Notes under the pieces: generated by a model
The model's input: the letters and a program-made list of their open reading frames with translations, nothing else
Told to the model about the DNA's origin: nothing
The model's database searches: none
Assembly: GCA_937907245.1 (NCBI GenBank)
Contig: CALCUM010000003.1
Location: forward strand, 372,001 to 436,000
Reading direction: 5' to 3'
DNA from: an uncultured Rhodobiaceae bacterium
GTDB taxonomy: Bacteria > Pseudomonadota > Alphaproteobacteria > RS24
DNA length: 64,000 nt
Program-made: the position numbers and the translations under genes
Part shown: piece by piece, positions 6,630 through 15,390 of the stretch
Layout of the letters: every line of letters starts with the position of its first letter
Numbering within the stretch: the stretch's first letter is position 1

Positions 6630-8217
6630 ATGAGCCAGCCTAACAAAACACTTGTTGCCCGGTTCTTTCCAAAGCTGCTGCTGCTAGGTTTTATTATAGG
6701 GCATGGGTTTGTTTTGGTTTGGCCTGCCATCACCGAGTTCAATGATGGGCGTTTTCTACTGCATATGGATGAACGTATTTCCTACGATCAAATAAAGCCG
6801 GTTACGCAAGCGCGAGGGCCCGTGGACTTGATTGTGGCACTCGTCGGTTCCGACTTCCGCTATGGCCGATTGATGTATGTTTTACCTGCTTCCTTTGCGG
6901 GTGTTGCAGAGGTTTTTTGGGGCGAGAGGGGTTTTATTTCCTCTATCCGCCTGTTCTTCTATCTGTCTATTTTGGCTAGCGCTTTATTGGTCTTCAAAAT
7001 GGGGCGCTATAGTTTGGCGTCGGCCCTAGCGGCCATAACAATTATGAGCCTGCCCTATACAGAATATTTCGCCACCCTGCCAAAGCCCGATGCGCCGCAA
7101 GTCTTGTGCCTATTGATCGGTCTTCTGGCTCTATCCAAACATCGTCCTCTTATCGCGGGGCTTTTTATCGGGCTGGCTATGGGGTTCAAACTATCGTCTC
7201 TTTTTGCCCTTCCCGTGTTGGCTGTTTGGCTGGCCTCTAGCGCTATTCGGACGCGCCTTGGAGACACACCAAACAAGCCTGACGAAAGCCAATACATGGC
7301 GGTTTATCGGCGGCTTTGGCCTCTCCATGTTAGCCAATGTGCCGATACTGCTGGTTATCCCTTATGGCTGGGAAGTCTATCTTCATTTCATCGTGGGCAA
7401 TTCTACGCATGGCTCAGACATTCTGGGGCTGCCCATTGTTTTATGGCTCAAAGGCTTTCCACAAGCCGTCGGGGGATACCTAAATGTCGTCGCTTTTGGC
7501 GCTCTATTCGCCTTGGCAAGCGCCTTTCTCATTCGCCGTGTGCCCAAGGGGCTGCGGCAAAGCTTGCCTCTTAGCGTGCTTCTTTTCGGCATTGCCCTCA
7601 CTTGGTTTTTGTCGGTTGTCTTTACGACCCCAAGACTATGGGGGCATTACTTGTGGCCTAGCTATGTGCTGCTAATCGCGGGTCTGAACTTGCACCTAGC
7701 GCAGCAACGAAACACTGGCGGGTTTCGCAAAACAGTGCGGGCTATCTATATGCTTGGATTATTGGCGATATGCGCCAATGCTTACGTTGTGCAGGACAAT
7801 CGATATCAAACTCAATTGCCTCGCCCTAACGCAACACAGCAATTGCTTCTCGAAACTCAATATGCCCACGCGCAAAATTATTTACAAAATCTGCCGTCCG
7901 CCTCCAAGCCTTGGCTTATTCACTTCGACCCGCGCCTTTATCAAGTCGCATCTACGCAGGCCTATTCTATCGAGAATTATTGGGGGCCCTATCACCTCTG
8001 GTCAAAGGCCCCGCACGCCATCCTCGTCCAAGGTCAAATTGTCGAGACATCGTCAAAACCACGGTCTGAACATGACCTTGAGATGAACGAGGCCTATGCG
8101 CTAGCGATGCCACGCTTGCGCGCGCCGCATGGCAGCTGCCAAACGGCACCATGTTATAAATTGGTTCTAAATCGAGATGATTTGGCAATCTGGCAAAAAA
8201 TCAGTCAAGCTCCATAG
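6630..8217 (+). pseudogene. GT-C-like membrane glycosyltransferase gene, frameshifted
   Basis: Two overlapping plus-strand frames together make one membrane protein of about 530 residues. The first frame starts at 6630 with membrane segments and an HMDE stretch near residue 46, like the acidic motif of GT39/ArnT-type GT-C enzymes. It stays sensible until AIRTRLGD. The continuation (IGGFGLSMLANVP onward, six or more further membrane segments and a periplasmic-type tail) is in the next frame. The switch lies between about 7250 and 7300 and needs one extra or two missing bases. Either the gene is broken or the assembly has an indel; no clear slippery heptamer is visible. It follows the WecA-like gene by 10 nt, ending the plus-strand operon. 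Confidence 0.7.
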
Positions 8218-8218
8218 T

Positions 8219-9256
8219 CTATAATTGTGCCGCCGCCAGAGATTGACGATATTTTTCTGCATCCCAATCCAATAGGTCAGCCACATCTGAATCTTTCAAA
8301 GGCACGGGCCTGCTATCGACGGGCAGCCGAACGACCACATCTGCGTAACACAGCAATTGCTCGCGGGCGGCTTGCGTGGCCGTGCCGGACACCAGCACCC
8401 CTTCCCCTTCAACCAAAATAAAGTCTGGCGCATTTTCGATAAGCGTTGGGGCCTCGCCCCCTAAGCGTTCCAAAGAACAACAGACCGCACGCGGGCCCAA
8501 AAACACCGCGTGATCTGGATATAAAACCCATGCTGTTTTCGCCATCTCCAGCGCTGCCGCATCCCTAGCCAAAACATCTAGGTTTTCATCTTTTGACCAA
8601 GCATAGTGCCCCGCCAGAGCTTCTGGCAGGCCAGCTGCACCAGAACTTGCCGAGGCTTTTAGCTGCACGGGTTGGCGAACACACGCGATAATCTGCGCTA
8701 GTTTTTTGTCCAATTCGCTTACCGTTTCGGCGGCCACCACAATTCCATGATTGGCCAGCAACACCAAATCCATGGCCCCCAAATCATCAGCCGCCGCGCT
8801 CACCGCTTGAGCCAAGTCAGCTCCCGGTTTGAAATAATCGACAAGACACCAAGCGATATCGCTAGGTAGAGCTGCCGCAAATGCAGCTCGCGGATTATGG
8901 CCTACCAATAAAGCCAAAGGGTCAATGGCATGCACATGGAGAACATATTTTTGCGGCATGAGCGCATGCAATAGGGTTTCAATAGAGGGGCGCAAATCAC
9001 CGCCATCCGCCGCCTTGGGTTGGGTCGAAAAATCACCTTTTTGCAGACGTTCCCGAACGGGCTGCAAATCTACGGCCACAAAAATGGGCTTTTCTTCCGC
9101 TTCCGATAAACGCGTGCCAGACGCTTTTACCCAGAGGGTATCCGCTTGTTTCCAAGAAGCATTGCCGCCGCCGCCTTGCACCAACAAACGATCTCGGCCA
9201 ACGCGGGCGCAAAGGGCAAGGAGGTCATCGCCGTGAGACGTGGGCGCGATGCTCAT
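8219..9256 (-). CDS. Class II aldolase/adducin-domain protein
   Basis: Protein of 345 residues; roughly 1-210 form a class II (zinc) aldolase/epimerase fold, as in L-fuculose- and L-ribulose-phosphate enzymes. Seen: GGGGNASWK (phosphate-loop-like GN[AT]S), VKASGTRL, the HVHAID pair and NHG histidine expected to bind metal, with a further domain of about 130 residues (HYAWSKDENLDV onward) as in two-part RhaD-like aldolases. It is the last gene of the seven-gene operon and its ATG overlaps the HAD gene stop by 4 nt. In that setting it may make or cleave a phosphorylated keto-sugar intermediate, which is inference. The substrate is unknown. Confidence 0.75.
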   Translation of the reverse strand: MSIAPTSHGDDLLALCARVGRDRLLVQGGGGNASWKQADTLWVKASGTRLSEAEEKPIFVAVDLQPVRERLQKGDFSTQPKAADGGDLRPSIETLLHALMPQKYVLHVHAIDPLALLVGHNPRAAFAAALPSDIAWCLVDYFKPGADLAQAVSAAADDLGAMDLVLLANHGIVVAAETVSELDKKLAQIIACVRQPVQLKASASSGAAGLPEALAGHYAWSKDENLDVLARDAAALEMAKTAWVLYPDHAVFLGPRAVCCSLERLGGEAPTLIENAPDFILVEGEGVLVSGTATQAAREQLLCYADVVVRLPVDSRPVPLKDSDVADLLDWDAEKYRQSLAAAQL

Positions 9257-10002
9257 TTCGCAACTTCCAATTTAGTTAATGTTTCCGTCAATTTCGAGAA
9301 ATCGTCAAAAGTGACATCAACATTCGCAAGGCTTGCCTTTGGGGGGCGTGACCCATTGGTTTTCAAAAAGCTAACGCACCCCAAAGCCTGCTTGCTACCA
9401 GCCATATCGCACTCCAAATCGTCTCCAATCATCCATATTTTGCTGGGCTCACAATTAACTTTGGCCACAGCGGCATGAAAGATTTCAGGCTTGGGTTTTT
9501 CGGCGCCAATTTGTTCACTCGTAATGACAAAATCAAAGGCCTCTTCAATACCGAGATAGATTAGTTTTTGAAACTGAATTTGCGCTGTCAAATTGGTAAT
9601 GAGAACGACAGGAATGCTACGCAAACGCGCTTCCTCGAAAAAATCGGTGACGCCTTCAAACAAATAGCTGTGTCGCAAAAAACGACGCCAATAGGTTTGC
9701 TCATAATCAAGCGCCTTTAGCACAGCCGCTCCCAAACCAATGGACTCGAGCAGCTCTTGGAAATACAGCAGTCGACTGCGCGCAGAAGGCGCATCGCCTA
9801 AGCGGGCTTTCACGCTTTTGCGAGCTGCATCAAACAAGATTTTAAATTGCTCGGGCTGAACATCAAAGTCGGTCTTCAACTTATCGCCGACGGCAGCTAA
9901 TCCAGCTGTATGACCTGGGTCATATGGGTAAAGCGTATTGTCTAGATCCACAAAAATCGCAGACGGCGCCTCGCTTAACACAACTTTAGATAGAATTTTC
10001 AT
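9253..10002 (-). CDS. HAD-superfamily hydrolase (probable sugar-phosphate phosphatase)
   Basis: Cytoplasmic HAD-IA phosphatase-like protein of 249 residues. The four motifs are visible: DLDNTLYP (nucleophile Asp, general-acid Asp replaced by Asn in the DxDxT pattern as in some pyrimidine-nucleotidase-like members), LITNLT, the lysine in GAEKPKPEIF, and IGDDLECDM. A helical cap lies between motifs one and two. AGGAAG sits just before the ATG, which overlaps the end of the kinase-fusion gene by 17 nt. It likely removes phosphate from an intermediate of the operon's pathway; that role is inferred only from position. Confidence 0.78.
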   Translation of the reverse strand: MKILSKVVLSEAPSAIFVDLDNTLYPYDPGHTAGLAAVGDKLKTDFDVQPEQFKILFDAARKSVKARLGDAPSARSRLLYFQELLESIGLGAAVLKALDYEQTYWRRFLRHSYLFEGVTDFFEEARLRSIPVVLITNLTAQIQFQKLIYLGIEEAFDFVITSEQIGAEKPKPEIFHAAVAKVNCEPSKIWMIGDDLECDMAGSKQALGCVSFLKTNGSRPPKASLANVDVTFDDFSKLTETLTKLEVAK

Positions 10003-12049
10003 AACTTCCTCGTGCCGCCATTTGGCTAGCGATAACCATTAAGGTAACCAATTGCATAACGCCCGTCATGCCCGATTTCCATTGCGGCGCTTCATCAAAA
10101 AACTCCATCAAATTAGGGCACACAAGATCGACGGCCATGGCAATATCGGTTGCGCGAATATCACCCGATATCGTCATTTCCACATTTCCATTGGCGCGGT
10201 CTCGTTTGGTGCTGACCTCGCACATCAAAAGGCCGGTCAGAATTCGGGCCAAAAGTTCTTCATTATTACCAGAAGCAAATTTCGCCTTCAGCCTAAGATT
10301 GACATCGTCGAGAGAGCCGCTCTCCGGCAAAGCCTGTTCAGGCTGCAAGGAGAACACAATATCGGCTTGATCTTCTTGGGGCGCGACAAAGTTCTCAAAA
10401 TCTGCACGCCGCGACTCCAAGGCCTCCAGAGTGCTTTCCAATGACTTTCCGCGCAACACAGTATCCCGGTGAATTTTGTACCCACGGCGCAAACCCTCAT
10501 CAATGGCGAGGTATATCTTCAGATCAAACAAAGCCGATTGCTTGGCCGAGAAAAAAGCATGCAGGCCTGATGCGATAACGAAATCGCGCGAAGCCAGTTT
10601 TTCGGGACGACTAAGTTTGCCCGTCGCATGATCGTAATGGCGTTTCAAGATAGTCTTACCCGCCCGCAGTTTTTCAATATCGCCGGTAAAGCCCTCGAGG
10701 TTATTGGCCGCCGGGTTAAGATGCGTCATCACCTGCCACATGGGTTTTTGACGGTCATAGCGATGGTAATCATCGCCCGACAAATTAGTAGCCGAATGGC
10801 TGCCAAAGACATCGATAATCGCTTCCGCCAGAGTGTCTTTACCAGCCCCAGAATCGCCCGCGATGGCCAGCATGAACGGTCGTTGGCTAACCCGGAAAAA
10901 CGCATTTTGAGAAATCGACTCGCGCCACATCCGAAGCCCAATAATTACCCCAAGGGTGACCAATAAAGTGACGAGCCCCGATTGCACGAAAGGCGCGGAG
11001 AGAAAGTTTAAATTTACTGCGGCAAACAGATCAACTTCGGACCCCGACCCCAAAACCGCTGGCTTGTGAACCAAGGCGTTTAGCGTAAACAAAATGGCAT
11101 AGAGATAGCCAAGGCGTATCGCCACCAATCCACTTTGTGTTTGATAAAGAACCAAGAACGGTAGGCTCCAGACAAACCAACCAGCACTTCCGGGGGTCAA
11201 TAAAGCCAGCGCCAAAAACGTGACGCCGAGGAAAGAAACAAACATATTGAAACTCAGCCTACGAGCGCGCCAAATCCAATATAAGAACAAAACAAAGCCG
11301 AGCGGCAATAATAGAATAGTCGCCCCGCCAAAGCTCACCGCATAATTGGCCAGAGTGCCCATCTCAGAATTGCCGCTAACAAAACCGAGAGCCACATCCG
11401 AAGCCAAAAAAGGAATGCTGAGGGCGCCAAAACCAGCGGTAAAAGCCAGCGCAATTTTTACACTATGTTTGCGGACGGGCGGCTTATTGATAAAATAAAG
11501 AGCCACAATCGGTAGCGCAACCATCATGCTGAGTTTGGCAGATACCGCAAAGGCCAGAAACAAACCGGCCCAGACCCAGCGCCGATTGTGAAGGCACAAA
11601 ATAGCGGCCATGAGGAACCCAACGGCGACAATATCATTATATCCATAAACATAGGTCGCCACGAGCGTTATCGGCGACAGCCAAAACAAGGTCAGGACAC
11701 GCCGAGCCTTCTCATCGACCAGGCGGGCAAGAACCAGTAAAAGGGCAAATTCCCAAATAAACAGGGTTGCAAAATATAGCGTTAAGCCTTCAATCGGCAA
11801 GATTGCCTGCAAAGCGAAACCTGGCAAAAACACTAGCCACATAGCAAAGCCATAAGGAAAGGCCGCCGCCTGGCCACCAAGGTTTGCCCAGACAAGCCAG
11901 GGGTCAAACAACGACTGGCCTACCGTCGCCTCAAAAAACGGGACATATAAATCGCTGGCCGCCACCGGCACAAAGGCCGCTAGCAAAAGGCCGCGCAAGG
12001 CGCACCCTATCCAAAAGCTAGGCCTGGAGAGAACAGCTGAGATTGTCAT
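9986..12049 (-). CDS. GT-C membrane glycosyltransferase fused to a phosphoribulokinase/uridine-kinase-like domain
   Basis: A 687-residue two-part protein. Residues about 1-380 contain some 10-12 hydrophobic segments, with SDLYVPF and FDPWLVW near the first large loop and YGYNDIVAVG later, resembling GT87/PIG-M-like GT-C mannosyltransferases that use polyprenyl-phosphate sugars. Residues about 392-600 are a P-loop kinase: GDSGAGKDT at 398-406, DDYHRYDR at 426-433, HLNPAANN, IASGLHAF and the PQEDQADIV stretch are typical of phosphoribulokinase/uridine kinase. About 85 more residues follow. The start MTISAV is chosen because its ATG overlaps the upstream stop by 4 nt. The fusion suggests that a kinase step is tied to the membrane transfer step; substrates are unknown. 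Confidence 0.82.
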   Translation of the reverse strand: MTISAVLSRPSFWIGCALRGLLLAAFVPVAASDLYVPFFEATVGQSLFDPWLVWANLGGQAAAFPYGFAMWLVFLPGFALQAILPIEGLTLYFATLFIWEFALLLVLARLVDEKARRVLTLFWLSPITLVATYVYGYNDIVAVGFLMAAILCLHNRRWVWAGLFLAFAVSAKLSMMVALPIVALYFINKPPVRKHSVKIALAFTAGFGALSIPFLASDVALGFVSGNSEMGTLANYAVSFGGATILLLPLGFVLFLYWIWRARRLSFNMFVSFLGVTFLALALLTPGSAGWFVWSLPFLVLYQTQSGLVAIRLGYLYAILFTLNALVHKPAVLGSGSEVDLFAAVNLNFLSAPFVQSGLVTLLVTLGVIIGLRMWRESISQNAFFRVSQRPFMLAIAGDSGAGKDTLAEAIIDVFGSHSATNLSGDDYHRYDRQKPMWQVMTHLNPAANNLEGFTGDIEKLRAGKTILKRHYDHATGKLSRPEKLASRDFVIASGLHAFFSAKQSALFDLKIYLAIDEGLRRGYKIHRDTVLRGKSLESTLEALESRRADFENFVAPQEDQADIVFSLQPEQALPESGSLDDVNLRLKAKFASGNNEELLARILTGLLMCEVSTKRDRANGNVEMTISGDIRATDIAMAVDLVCPNLMEFFDEAPQWKSGMTGVMQLVTLMVIASQMAARGSYENSI

Positions 12050-12645
12050 TGGATAATCCCCTCCCATAAATCTGCGCGCTTGGTGCAAATAGCGTCGGGT
12101 TGAACGTTCAAACTCAAAATTTGCGCGCCCATATCAGCGATGGCAACATCCGCATCGCGCCCTTGCAGCTCCGGGGAAACCAAACACAAGTTAAACCCTG
12201 CCGCTTTCAACCGATCGTAATCATCGTCTTTGAACGGCAGTTTGGTAAAACAATCGACCCAAACCCAATCGACTTTGCCAGCTAAAGCCAAGACTGTATC
12301 AAGGCTCTCAAATTCAGAGTATCGCACGGCGGAGCGGCCACGCGCGGCTTTCGCGTAGCGCACTAAAAACGGAAAAGACTGGTCTAGAAAAAAGTAATCT
12401 TCGCAGCCTATATCCGCCATGCGCTGAATGAGAAAAGGCTCTAAGCCCTCTTCTTTTACATTTAAAATCAGGGTCTTATGATGAAATTCCTTGAGCCATT
12501 CATCGAATAATTCCCCACGCTCAAACGGGTCATGATGCAAAACAAGGTCGGATCCATAGCTGCGGATATCAATCTCAACACCAAAGTGATCTGGCGTCGC
12601 TTTCAGCTGCTCAAGGGTATTGATGCGATGAGAAATAAACTGCAT
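12046..12645 (-). CDS. Short GDPD-like phosphodiesterase-family protein
   Basis: Cytoplasmic protein of 199 residues resembling a compact glycerophosphodiester phosphodiesterase TIM barrel (the family is usually about 240-300 residues). The catalytic-type residues are conserved: SHR at the N-terminus (the His-Arg of AHRG), GVEIDIR (Glu and Asp metal ligands) and LVLHHDPF (His-Asp). Later strand motifs LILNVKEEG and WVWVDCF also fit. There is no signal peptide. Its ATG overlaps the GT2 stop (TAATG) and its stop overlaps the next ATG. It may cleave or bind a phosphodiester such as a nucleotide-linked or glycerophospho intermediate, but its true substrate cannot be read from the sequence. Confidence 0.65.
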   Translation of the reverse strand: MQFISHRINTLEQLKATPDHFGVEIDIRSYGSDLVLHHDPFERGELFDEWLKEFHHKTLILNVKEEGLEPFLIQRMADIGCEDYFFLDQSFPFLVRYAKAARGRSAVRYSEFESLDTVLALAGKVDWVWVDCFTKLPFKDDDYDRLKAAGFNLCLVSPELQGRDADVAIADMGAQILSLNVQPDAICTKRADLWEGIIQ

Positions 12646-13367
12646 TACAGGTACCTTTTTTTCAATTCTAGACTGAAATCAATGGTGCGACGGATAAATT
12701 TATACTTGCTGCGCCAATCAACATTCCAATGCGAGGTGCCGAATTGGCGCTCGCCGAAATATACAGGAAAGCGGTGAATTTTTAACCCTGCTTTCTTGGC
12801 CATATAATAGGCATATAAGTCCAACGAGAAATCATGCGGCGGATCTTCCCATGTTTCGAAAAAAGCCCGCGAGAAAACCGTTGGCTGGGCATTAATATCC
12901 CAAAACACGCGCCGTAATAGCAGCATTTCGAAAAAGCTCATACCAATGGTAAACATGACATCCACCAGCGGACGACCAAAGCGGCGCCCTTTCACAAAGG
13001 CCGCCAATGGCTCGCCCTCGGCTGGTATGGTTTTAGAATGGGTTTTAAAATAGTCTAGAGCCGCGTTCATATCAGCCGGGTCGGTTTGTAGATCCGCATG
13101 CGTCCAGCCCAAAATCTCACCCTTTGCTGCGTTTAAGCCGGCCAGAATACCAAAGCCATAGCCCTGGTTTTCCGCCACCCGAATGGCGCGTATCTGCGGG
13201 TCTGTTTTTAACAAAGCGGCCAGAACCTCCGGCGTCGTATCGGTCGATCCATTGTCAACCAGCACCACTTCTACAGTCTCGGGCAGCGCTGCCGCACGAC
13301 ACGCCGCCACCAGCGTCTCCAGACCAGCGGCCTCATTGTAACAGGGGATAATCAGTGAAGCGTGCAT
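12645..13367 (-). CDS. GT2 polyprenyl-phosphate glycosyltransferase (Dpm1/GtrB-like)
   Basis: Inverting GT-A enzyme of 240 residues, expected to move a sugar from a nucleotide donor to a polyprenyl phosphate. Seen: SLIIPCYNEAAGL at the start, VDNGSTD, the DxD equivalent HADLQTDP, and the Dpm1-type C-terminal block FWDINAQPTVFSR followed by DFSLDLYAYYMA. There are no C-terminal membrane helices, so it is of the soluble Dpm1 type. The start MHASLI is one base after the gtrA stop; an earlier in-frame ATG would overlap gtrA. Adjacent to a GtrA-type flippase and a GT-C enzyme, it fits a three-part load, flip and transfer cassette. Confidence 0.85.
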   Translation of the reverse strand: MHASLIIPCYNEAAGLETLVAACRAAALPETVEVVLVDNGSTDTTPEVLAALLKTDPQIRAIRVAENQGYGFGILAGLNAAKGEILGWTHADLQTDPADMNAALDYFKTHSKTIPAEGEPLAAFVKGRRFGRPLVDVMFTIGMSFFEMLLLRRVFWDINAQPTVFSRAFFETWEDPPHDFSLDLYAYYMAKKAGLKIHRFPVYFGERQFGTSHWNVDWRSKYKFIRRTIDFSLELKKRYL

Positions 13368-13368
13368 A

Positions 13369-13776
13369 TCAATGCGCCTTAAATACAAAAAATTTCATAC
13401 CGAGATAATTGAACACGGCCGAAAAACCAGTCGCGATAACAAACGCCATTGTGAACCCATAGGCCAAATCTGCCAATAGACCGAGCGATACGTTATTCAG
13501 CGCAATATTGCCAAATAACGAAAGCGCATAGACAAGGCAAAATCGCCACAGGGAATAACGATTGTCGGCCTCATGCTCGAAAGTGAATTTTTGATTGGCC
13601 CAATAGGCAAACACTGCGCCACTTAAAAACCCTAAGGCTTTGGCCGCATCCACGGCCCCTTGCGCGAAAGATTGCAGGCCATAGTAAACGCCATAGTCAA
13701 TCAAAACAGCCGAAATCCCCACGCCTAGAAACGTCAATCGCTCTCGGTTGAGCAGGGTTTTAAGGGCCGTGAGCAT
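13369..13776 (-). CDS. GtrA-family membrane protein (putative polyprenyl-phosphate-sugar flippase)
   Basis: Small inner-membrane protein of 135 residues with four hydrophobic segments, the normal size and topology of GtrA/PF04138. The family features are GVGISAVLIDYGVYYGL in helix one, FAYWANQKFTFEH after helix two (the conserved N-[RK]-x-[FW]-[TS]-F element), and NYLGMKFFVF near the end. GtrA members are thought to translocate undecaprenyl-phosphate-linked sugars to the periplasm. The ATG directly follows the stop of the double nucleotidyltransferase (TAGATG), indicating coupled translation. Confidence 0.85.
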   Translation of the reverse strand: MLTALKTLLNRERLTFLGVGISAVLIDYGVYYGLQSFAQGAVDAAKALGFLSGAVFAYWANQKFTFEHEADNRYSLWRFCLVYALSLFGNIALNNVSLGLLADLAYGFTMAFVIATGFSAVFNYLGMKFFVFKAH

Positions 13777-15390
13777 CTACTTAGCAGGCTCGAAATCGAG
13801 GAAAGGATGGGACGCCCATTTCGAAAAGCAACTTTGCCAATATTCGAAAGTCTTTAAATCATTGGGCGTGCCCCAAGAAATGTAATGCTGATTTTCAAAC
13901 AGCTCGCATACCAGCCCCAATGTCAGGGCATCATTGACGCAACTATCGAGATAATATTCACCGTTCACCCGCCCCTCGCGGGCCAGCAGGCTCTCGACGC
14001 AGCGGCGAAATAAAGCGCCCGAACGGAAAGTAATCGTACCGGTAATAATCGGGTCGTGTTGCGGGTTATCCAAAGGCTGCTTGACCGAGACATTAACAAT
14101 CTGTTCGTCGCGCACATCTATCCAGCCAAACATTTTAGGATGGCGTACCGCATTGGTCACGCCGCGCGCACCCCATACCAACAGCTCACCGCCTTGCGCT
14201 TGCCATTGCGCAAATTTTTCCAAATCATAAATCGCGCCATTATCGCAGGCTCCAAAGGTTACCGTGCCGTCAAAGTCTGGCCGCTCGCGCTCCAGCGCTT
14301 CCAAACCCGCCAAACAGGTCAGCGCTTGCCCATCGGTCAGCGCAGGCAGAATTTCGAGAATGGCTTGCGGAAACCGGGTTTTCAAAGTCTGCAAAATATC
14401 GTCAAGGCCCGGCATATCCCCGCGCAAGACAAATACATGATGCGCGGCTGGCGGCAGGTCATAAACCGCCGAGAGAACCATCGGCTGATGCTTGACCTCA
14501 ATCAGAGGCTTGATGGTGGTATAGCCCGCATCGGCAAAGCGTTGACCCAGCCCCGCCATTGGAATGATAACAGCATGATTATCCTCCGCTTCGGGGGCTT
14601 CGGGGGCTTCGTGCGTCGGGGTAGGTTTGGTGAAATGATGAAACACATCCGACCACCCGTTATATTCCGCCACATCTTCTGGCGTACCCCATTGCATGAA
14701 GTGTTCCAGCTCATAAACACGAATGTCGGCTCCTGCTTCCAACATCGGCTTATAGGCGAGGCTGACATAAAACTCGCCATTGATGGACAAGTCTTGTGCC
14801 ACACAATCTGCCAAGGCCCGTTTCATCACCGCGCCAGATTTAAAATAATAAGTGCCGCTAGAGGCGAACTCTTGCATGCGATTATCGGTAAATGGTTCTT
14901 TCTCTTTGATATCGAGCATCCGCATGTTTTCTTCGCGCATATAAGCATAATTGGTCGAGCCTAATGTATGCGGATGAAACCCACGATAGGCTGGCACGGC
15001 GCCATCACAATCGGTTTCTTGAACTCTTTTTTTGAAGGCCGAATAATCCCAATAGCAGGTAAAATCGCAATAATTTACGATTGTGGGCTCGCTATCTGAC
15101 ACTAAGTCAGCCACCTGCTGGACCGCATGAATAGGGCCTAATTTATGCGGCGCGATACCAACAATGCGAGCGGTTGGGCATAAATTTTCCAAAATATCTC
15201 GCATATGAAAATCAGGCTCATCCAAATGGTCTTGATTGCAGATGAATATGAAATCAGTCTCGCCGGGAAACATATCTACGACATGGGCGATAATCGGCTT
15301 GCCTTCGATGTCGATAAGCGGCTTGGGCACTTGATACCCAACGCGACGAAACCGCTCTCCAAACCCAGACATTGGAATAATGACTTGCAT
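13777..15390 (-). CDS. Tandem double nucleotidyltransferase
   Basis: 537-residue protein made of two sugar-phosphate nucleotidyltransferase-like domains in series. Domain 1 (about 1-245) has IIPMSGFGERF, PKPLIDIEGKP, VNYCDF (metal Asp109), GSTNYAYM, NGEFYVS and QWGTPEDVAEY. Domain 2 (about 272-515) repeats the pattern with IIPMAGLGQRF, KPLIEV, GACDNG, GEYYLDS and SWGTPNDLKTF. A proline/glutamate-rich linker at about 254-270 joins them. Both domains keep the G-x-G-x-R loop, so both may be active. The MQVIIPM start gives the proper family N-terminus. It is the first gene of the seven-gene operon and probably makes its activated precursor(s); the nucleotide is unknown. Confidence 0.8.
   Translation of the reverse strand: MQVIIPMSGFGERFRRVGYQVPKPLIDIEGKPIIAHVVDMFPGETDFIFICNQDHLDEPDFHMRDILENLCPTARIVGIAPHKLGPIHAVQQVADLVSDSEPTIVNYCDFTCYWDYSAFKKRVQETDCDGAVPAYRGFHPHTLGSTNYAYMREENMRMLDIKEKEPFTDNRMQEFASSGTYYFKSGAVMKRALADCVAQDLSINGEFYVSLAYKPMLEAGADIRVYELEHFMQWGTPEDVAEYNGWSDVFHHFTKPTPTHEAPEAPEAEDNHAVIIPMAGLGQRFADAGYTTIKPLIEVKHQPMVLSAVYDLPPAAHHVFVLRGDMPGLDDILQTLKTRFPQAILEILPALTDGQALTCLAGLEALERERPDFDGTVTFGACDNGAIYDLEKFAQWQAQGGELLVWGARGVTNAVRHPKMFGWIDVRDEQIVNVSVKQPLDNPQHDPIITGTITFRSGALFRRCVESLLAREGRVNGEYYLDSCVNDALTLGLVCELFENQHYISWGTPNDLKTFEYWQSCFSKWASHPFLDFEPAK

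Follow-up and report, generated by a model that had tools for sequence, protein, structure and literature searches.

Genes of the cassette and their setting

Positions 8219-15390 of a 64,000-nucleotide stretch of DNA from an uncultured Rhodobiaceae bacterium (the whole stretch is referred to here as the window) hold a cassette of seven intact open reading frames (ORFs), all on the minus strand and all starting with ATG, that combines glycosylation-type genes with genes of predicted sugar phosphate metabolism. In operon order, the junctions between them measure 0, +1, -1, -4, -17 and -4 nucleotides. Coordinates, strand, spacings and domain calls (the last taken from Pfam and NCBIfam) all bear out an earlier, model-made reading of the same DNA (the original prediction), which had described seven minus-strand genes with tight junctions. 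From the first gene to the last, the cassette comprises:

13777..15390 (-): NT2, a tandem two-domain nucleotidyltransferase, 537 amino acids (Pfam PF00483/PF12804)
13369..13776 (-): GtrA-type small membrane protein, putative flippase of a polyprenyl-phosphate-linked residue, 135 amino acids (PF04138, 66 bits)
12645..13367 (-): GT2 of the GtrB/ArnC/Dpm1 type, putative polyprenyl-phosphate glycosyltransferase, 240 amino acids (PF00535)
12046..12645 (-): minimal GDPD-superfamily phosphodiesterase, 199 amino acids (from the fold of an AlphaFold2 model)
9986..12049 (-): fusion of a GT-C glycosyltransferase with a kinase of the phosphoribulokinase (PRK) type, 687 amino acids (PF00485, ALG3/GT87)
9253..10002 (-): HAD phosphatase, 249 amino acids (nearest family NF053830, ribulose-1,5-bisphosphate 5-phosphatase)
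8219..9256 (-): class II aldolase-fold protein, RhaD-like, with a C-terminal extension, 345 amino acids (PF00596)

The stop codon of rmlA lies 151 nucleotides before the operon start, and the stop codon of a convergent gene lies 1 nucleotide from that of the aldolase gene. The surroundings are those of a polysaccharide region, with Gmd, an initiating transferase, an O-antigen ligase-like protein and Wzx. Current annotations of such genes are generic (for example 'uridine kinase', 'PLC/GDPD family protein', 'class II aldolase/adducin').

Co-occurrence and mobility

An alignment of the GDPD-like protein was used to scan 84,980 species genomes, which yielded 260 relatives, of which 80 loci were kept; co-occurrence was counted in 53 loci of other species with full 10-kb flanks, with the GDPD-like gene as bait. 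The original prediction had proposed a genome search for NT2, the fusion and the GDPD-like gene together, and had named rare joint travel of the seven genes as the outcome that would speak against it. The opposite was found, the set being together in most of the 53 loci (GT-C/kinase fusion in 53, HAD in 53, aldolase in 51, NT2 in 50, GT2 in 47 and GtrA in 37), whereas gene clusters from outside the cassette recur in at most 11. The GtrA count rose from 26 with a single-sequence search to 37 with a profile, so its absences are partly an effect of sensitivity. A search seeded with NT2, and thus independent of the GDPD bait, identified NT2 in 5 of 398 genomes of the phylum, and four of these five carriers have most or all of the other cassette genes alongside.

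Genes commonly mix in polysaccharide regions such as that of the window, and the seven might therefore be unrelated polysaccharide genes that are adjacent by accident. This is extremely improbable, since dozens of unrelated species carry the set, since it also occurs on plasmids, away from polysaccharide loci, and since the genes for the GDPD-like protein, the fusion and the HAD are contiguous on one strand in 40 of the 53 loci.

The distribution of the cassette is patchy: it was found in scattered alpha-, beta- and gammaproteobacteria, in other phyla and on plasmids, and a full-length match to the fusion protein was present in 3 of 289 genomes of the class. In the NT2 search, all other genomes from the genus or the family of the window lacked a match at E <1e-20. 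The tree of the fusion protein requires 20 changes among nine taxonomic classes, compared with a possible minimum of 8, and the branch leading to the window is long. Co-travel in unrelated taxa, combined with absence from the other genomes searched of the window's own genus and family, indicates a mobile module, and these patterns point to horizontal spread of the cassette as a unit. Plasmid copies occur in E. coli, Hirschia and Azospirillum, which suggests that transfer between distant hosts is possible. On the E. coli plasmid p5-S1-CAM-01-A (locus L098, 4986-17325), the whole cassette and a polytopic partner lie between the IS26 elements; a second E. coli record with a cassette match is NZ_JCAPUP010000005.

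In Yersinia, the fusion was present in 1 of 25 genomes, namely that of Y. proxima, where the cassette follows histidine utilisation-like genes and, by eye, no O-antigen cluster is visible within 20 kb; a search for the O-antigen structure of this species returned none. A link to the chromosomal clusters of E. coli O95 or other xylulose-type antigens was considered and set aside: a nucleotide comparison of the Y. proxima copy with 5,426 E. coli genomes matched two plasmids only, although a divergent cluster would escape such a comparison. Two further candidates were rejected. As an anti-phage defence system, the cassette gave no match to the PADLOC models, and as phage cargo it is represented in 50,697 phage records by relatives of NT2 only, with no tblastn match to the GDPD-like protein or the aldolase.

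Kinase, phosphatase and aldolase

In the AlphaFold2 model of the fusion protein (pLDDT 91.3, pTM 0.89), both modules are complete. The first, up to about residue 380, is a polytopic GT-C domain whose fold matches ALG6, ALG3 and GPI mannosyltransferase I (Z approx. 24.7). Residues 382-682 (approximate limits) match phosphoribulokinases over their whole length, including the PRK C-terminal domain (Z 28.9 over 282 residues to 5b3f). Uridine kinase, by comparison, reaches Z of about 21 over an alignment of just 193-200 residues. Within the kinase, the motifs DDYH..R, Y.H and K..RD...R align with those of PRKs and are retained by 60 or more of the 66 sequences; going by the PRK literature, they would form the ribulose 5-phosphate (Ru5P) site. 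In Polynucleobacter necessarius (L048, 10500-12600), the fusion is split into three ORFs, which is likely a case of gene decay.

Among all families, the window HAD is best matched by NF053830, the ribulose-1,5-bisphosphate (RuBP) 5-phosphatase family (162.6 bits, E 1.2e-47). This family is matched by 18 of 18 scanned cassette HADs and has the best E-value of all families over the set, whereas the next HAD of the same genome, taken as a control, scores 49 bits against it. A published RuBP 5-phosphatase yields ribulose 1-phosphate (Ru1P), which was detected in cyclised form (PMC9700705). The third enzyme belongs to the class II aldolase superfamily by both its fold family (PF00596) and its metal and catalytic residues, with the Glu and three His conserved (E93, H107, H109 and H170). 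It is closest to RhaD, and RhaD-type families are matched by 18 of 18 scanned cassette members; by its sequence, it resembles an aldolase of the ketose-1-phosphate type. The PRK features of the kinase, the relationship of the HAD to RuBP 5-phosphatase and the ketose-1-phosphate character of the aldolase thus jointly suggest ribulose phosphates, in line with the hint of a pentulose phosphate in the original prediction. Rubisco was found neither in the window genome nor in five of six other carriers tested. Carbon fixation was rejected on the ground that the host genome has no Rubisco, and because of this absence RuBP would have no carboxylation role in these hosts.

The same enzymes could be arranged as in the haloarchaeal non-carboxylating pentose bisphosphate pathway, with Ru1P derived from Ru5P being cleaved to dihydroxyacetone phosphate (DHAP) and glycolaldehyde. 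The decoration would then be a two- or three-carbon unit derived from glycolaldehyde, glycerol or DHAP, and the GDPD-like enzyme would handle a glycerophosphodiester. Such an arrangement would accommodate the HAD and the GDPD fold as well as the catalytic-type Glu93 and the three His ligands of the aldolase, and a pairing of RuBP phosphatase with Ru1P aldolase has already been published. It is nonetheless unlikely, since the Ru1P aldolase family NF053831 gives the window aldolase 14.4 bits where its cut-off is 300, the protein being RhaD-like instead. Moreover, DHAP is present in every cell, which would make a dedicated kinase for pentose splitting needless, and GT2, GtrA and GT-C proteins act on glycosyl residues.

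Predicted decoration machinery and proposed pathway

A GtrA protein, a GtrB-like GT2 and a GT-C enzyme constitute an established machinery for decorating glycans from a polyprenyl-phosphate sugar. The cassette contains both a GtrA-family membrane protein and a GtrB-type GT2, the latter having ArnC, sll0501 and Dpm1 as its nearest PDB entries and matching the phage family phrog_841 (GtrB-like); at 240 amino acids, it is too short to hold the usual C-terminal membrane helices. GtrA, GT2 and GT-C are conserved, and the earlier idea of a cassette for Gtr-like decoration that brings its own precursor genes is supported. Many cassettes also adjoin a polytopic protein, which belongs to one or another of several families unrelated to each other, a pattern that, by analogy, recalls serotype-specific gtr genes. 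Among representatives of these neighbours from other loci, just one gave a match to a glycosyltransferase family of Pfam. The window has its own neighbour of this kind:

6630..8217 (+): convergent polytopic GT-C-like gene, in two ORFs (6630-7574 and 7204-8217; PMT_2, 27.7 bits)

The two ORFs lie in different frames, an apparent frameshift near 7.2-7.3 kb dividing the gene. Its N-terminal part resembles, by eye, the cassette-adjacent protein of four other loci (L057, L071, L072 and L097), and it is probably the acceptor-specific partner transferase in the window. Unless the frameshift is a sequence error, the window copy may be incapable of using its original acceptor. As a separate, variable polytopic protein often follows the cassette, the GT-C of the fusion may not be the acceptor-specific transferase, a role that the variable neighbour may fit better. 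The earlier suggestion that the cassette itself attaches the residue is amended to that extent.

Two further enzymes may act on the precursor. Both domains of NT2 keep the G-x-G-x-R...K-x-L motif and the motif Asp; residues G9, R13, K23, D109, G280, G282, R284, K294 and D383 are present in 62 of 62 homologues and G11 in 59, so that both domains are apparently competent, as far as conservation can indicate. NT2 also matches the phage family phrog_3980, which has no functional annotation. The GDPD-like protein has no Pfam match, and inspection by eye revealed no evident signal peptide. AlphaFold2, given an alignment of 29 sequences, modelled it as a compact TIM barrel of the GDPD type (pLDDT 93.8), with Z 17.1 to 2o55 and 2pz0 and Z 16-17 to GDPDs over about 185 residues. 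Conservation of H6, R7, E24, D26, H38, D39 and K64 preserves the H-R, E-x-D and H-D patterns, and the E-x-K motif of GDPDs reads N62-x-K64 (register judged by eye).

On balance, and by a narrow preference over all other readings combined, we favour a horizontally transferred Gtr-type decoration module with a dedicated precursor branch that leads from Ru5P through RuBP to Ru1P. The PRK-type domain would phosphorylate Ru5P to RuBP, and the HAD would take off the 5-phosphate to give Ru1P, with O5 free and furanose closure of the pentulose possible; we infer that enabling this closure is the purpose of relocating the phosphate from O5 to O1. The RhaD-like aldolase-fold protein would then reshape the ketose-1-phosphate (by C4 epimerisation or a retro-aldol reaction), after which NT2 would make a nucleotide derivative, assisted in some way by the GDPD-like phosphodiesterase. 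The GT2 would load the residue onto polyprenyl phosphate, GtrA would flip it, and GT-C enzymes (the conserved fusion, the variable neighbour or both) would transfer it to a glycan in the periplasm, for which the most likely candidate in the window is the O-polysaccharide specified by the surrounding genes.

Within this scheme, it is tentatively proposed, as a rather improbable reading, that RuBP serves as a glycan precursor, that the RhaD-like enzyme sets C4 and that a pentulofuranose branch (ribulo- or xylulofuranose) is installed. A possible task of the GDPD-like enzyme would be to transfer the phosphate, via a 1,2-cyclic intermediate, from O1 to O2, the anomeric oxygen. If true, this would supply a genetic basis for rare branches such as that of the Yersinia enterocolitica O:10 O-antigen, whose gene cluster contains GDP-D-rhamnose genes but none assigned to xylulose synthesis, the addition of the xylulose branch being ascribed to glycosyltransferases by presumption only (PMC11380512).

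Several observations weigh against the proposed route. GT2 was not detected near 6 of the 53 cassettes, nor GtrA near 16. One genome (G023; L017, 4306-10264) has GDPD, GT2 and NT2 with no fusion, HAD or aldolase within 20 kb, while its relative G155 (L016) retains the fusion; this locus is either a reduced variant or a product of decay. A ketose-1-phosphate has its phosphate off the anomeric carbon, so that a GT2 would not normally accept a simple NDP-ketose as its donor, and the GDPD step is without a clear place in the pathway. The HAD, at 162.6 bits, lies below the NF053830 equivalog cut-off of 330, and its substrate may differ from RuBP. Finally, the 66 kinase sequences depart from the canonical PRK Walker A (GK[ST]) and the acidic EGLH motif: the former reads GKD, with Asp for the canonical Ser/Thr, in 58, and the latter has Ser/Thr for Glu (SGLH) in 62. 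These Asp and Ser substitutions look like a swap of metal ligands, and could also mean that the substrate differs from that of PRK.

The consistency of these substitutions, the HAD score and the physical joining of the kinase to a GT-C would also be compatible with a scheme in which RuBP is never made: GT2, GtrA and GT-C would add some common sugar, the PRK-type domain would either serve as a sensor or phosphorylate a sugar attached to a glycan or lipid, and the HAD and GDPD would trim phosphates. This division of tasks is doubtful. The fusion retains the C-terminal domain of PRKs as well as the residues that align with their sugar site, the HAD and the aldolase each independently indicate ketose phosphates, and an ATP-using domain must be cytosolic, apart from the periplasmic glycan.

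The favoured module shares features with several known systems. With gtrABC/gtrABX of Shigella, Salmonella and P22-type phages, it has in common GtrA, a GtrB-like GT2, the polyprenyl-phosphate logic, mobility and a variable polytopic neighbour, in the cassette a putative transferase; however, those systems use host UDP-glucose, whereas in the cassette the precursor would come from a two-domain nucleotidyltransferase together with four additional conserved enzymes, and its conserved GT-C carries a fused kinase. The ArnC/ArnT system for lipid A aminoarabinose likewise has a dedicated precursor pathway and a GT-C transferase, and a pentose-type residue as is proposed for the cassette, and ArnC is the nearest relative of the GT2 by sequence, but the cassette is without the UDP-glucuronate route, formyltransferase and EmrE-type flippase, and has ketose-phosphate enzymes instead. 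The haloarchaeal pathway also places a RuBP 5-phosphatase-like HAD beside a class II aldolase, although it serves nucleoside degradation and includes ribose-1,5-bisphosphate (R15P) isomerase, whereas the cassette has a PRK-type kinase, glycosylation genes and a RhaD-like aldolase (PMC9700705). Calvin-cycle phosphoribulokinase has the same full-length fold, including the C-terminal domain, but the cassette kinase is fused to a membrane GT-C, has altered Walker A and EGLH motifs and occurs in a host without Rubisco.

The mycobacterial decaprenylphosphoryl-arabinose pathway leads from a pentose phosphate via a polyprenyl-phosphate pentose to a GT-C enzyme. The cassette would be similar in this route, but neither a UbiA-type DPPR synthase nor DprE1/2 is among its seven genes.

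A search of openly licensed full texts found no paper describing this gene set, and within that literature the earlier statement that no described system has this set holds. It therefore appears that the parts are known and the combination is undescribed, the new elements being a GT-C fused to a complete PRK-type kinase and a HAD closest to RuBP 5-phosphatase. Such a module, which is widespread, would tie surface-glycan modification to the RuBP node, familiar from nucleoside breakdown and the fixation of CO2. If this is true, one could test directly where the rare pentuloses of bacterial polysaccharides come from, and genes for PRK-like proteins in non-autotrophs would call for reinterpretation.

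Partial relatives of the cassette occur elsewhere. In the cyanophages S-SM2 (L116, 9001-12309) and Bellamy (L117, 8001-11303), a full-length NT2 (580-592 bits to the NT2 family profile) stands directly before a GT61-like protein and then a class II aldolase, the latter detected by profile only. On Pseudomonas alcaligenes plasmid pMRCP2 (L119, 5998-8837), an operon of the order nucleotidyltransferase, GDPD-like, HAD, nucleotidyltransferase, with two single nucleotidyltransferase genes, is sister to part of the cassette and has no PRK or aldolase. The pairing of NT2 with an aldolase in phages, and of nucleotidyltransferases with GDPD on pMRCP2, supports a single shared pathway. In addition, a conserved methyltransferase-like gene (cluster c4, TylF-like by eye) occurs in eight loci (L058, L065, L067, L075, L092, L096, L056 and L015), in seven of which it sits between NT2 and GT2, and it possibly marks an O-methylated variant.

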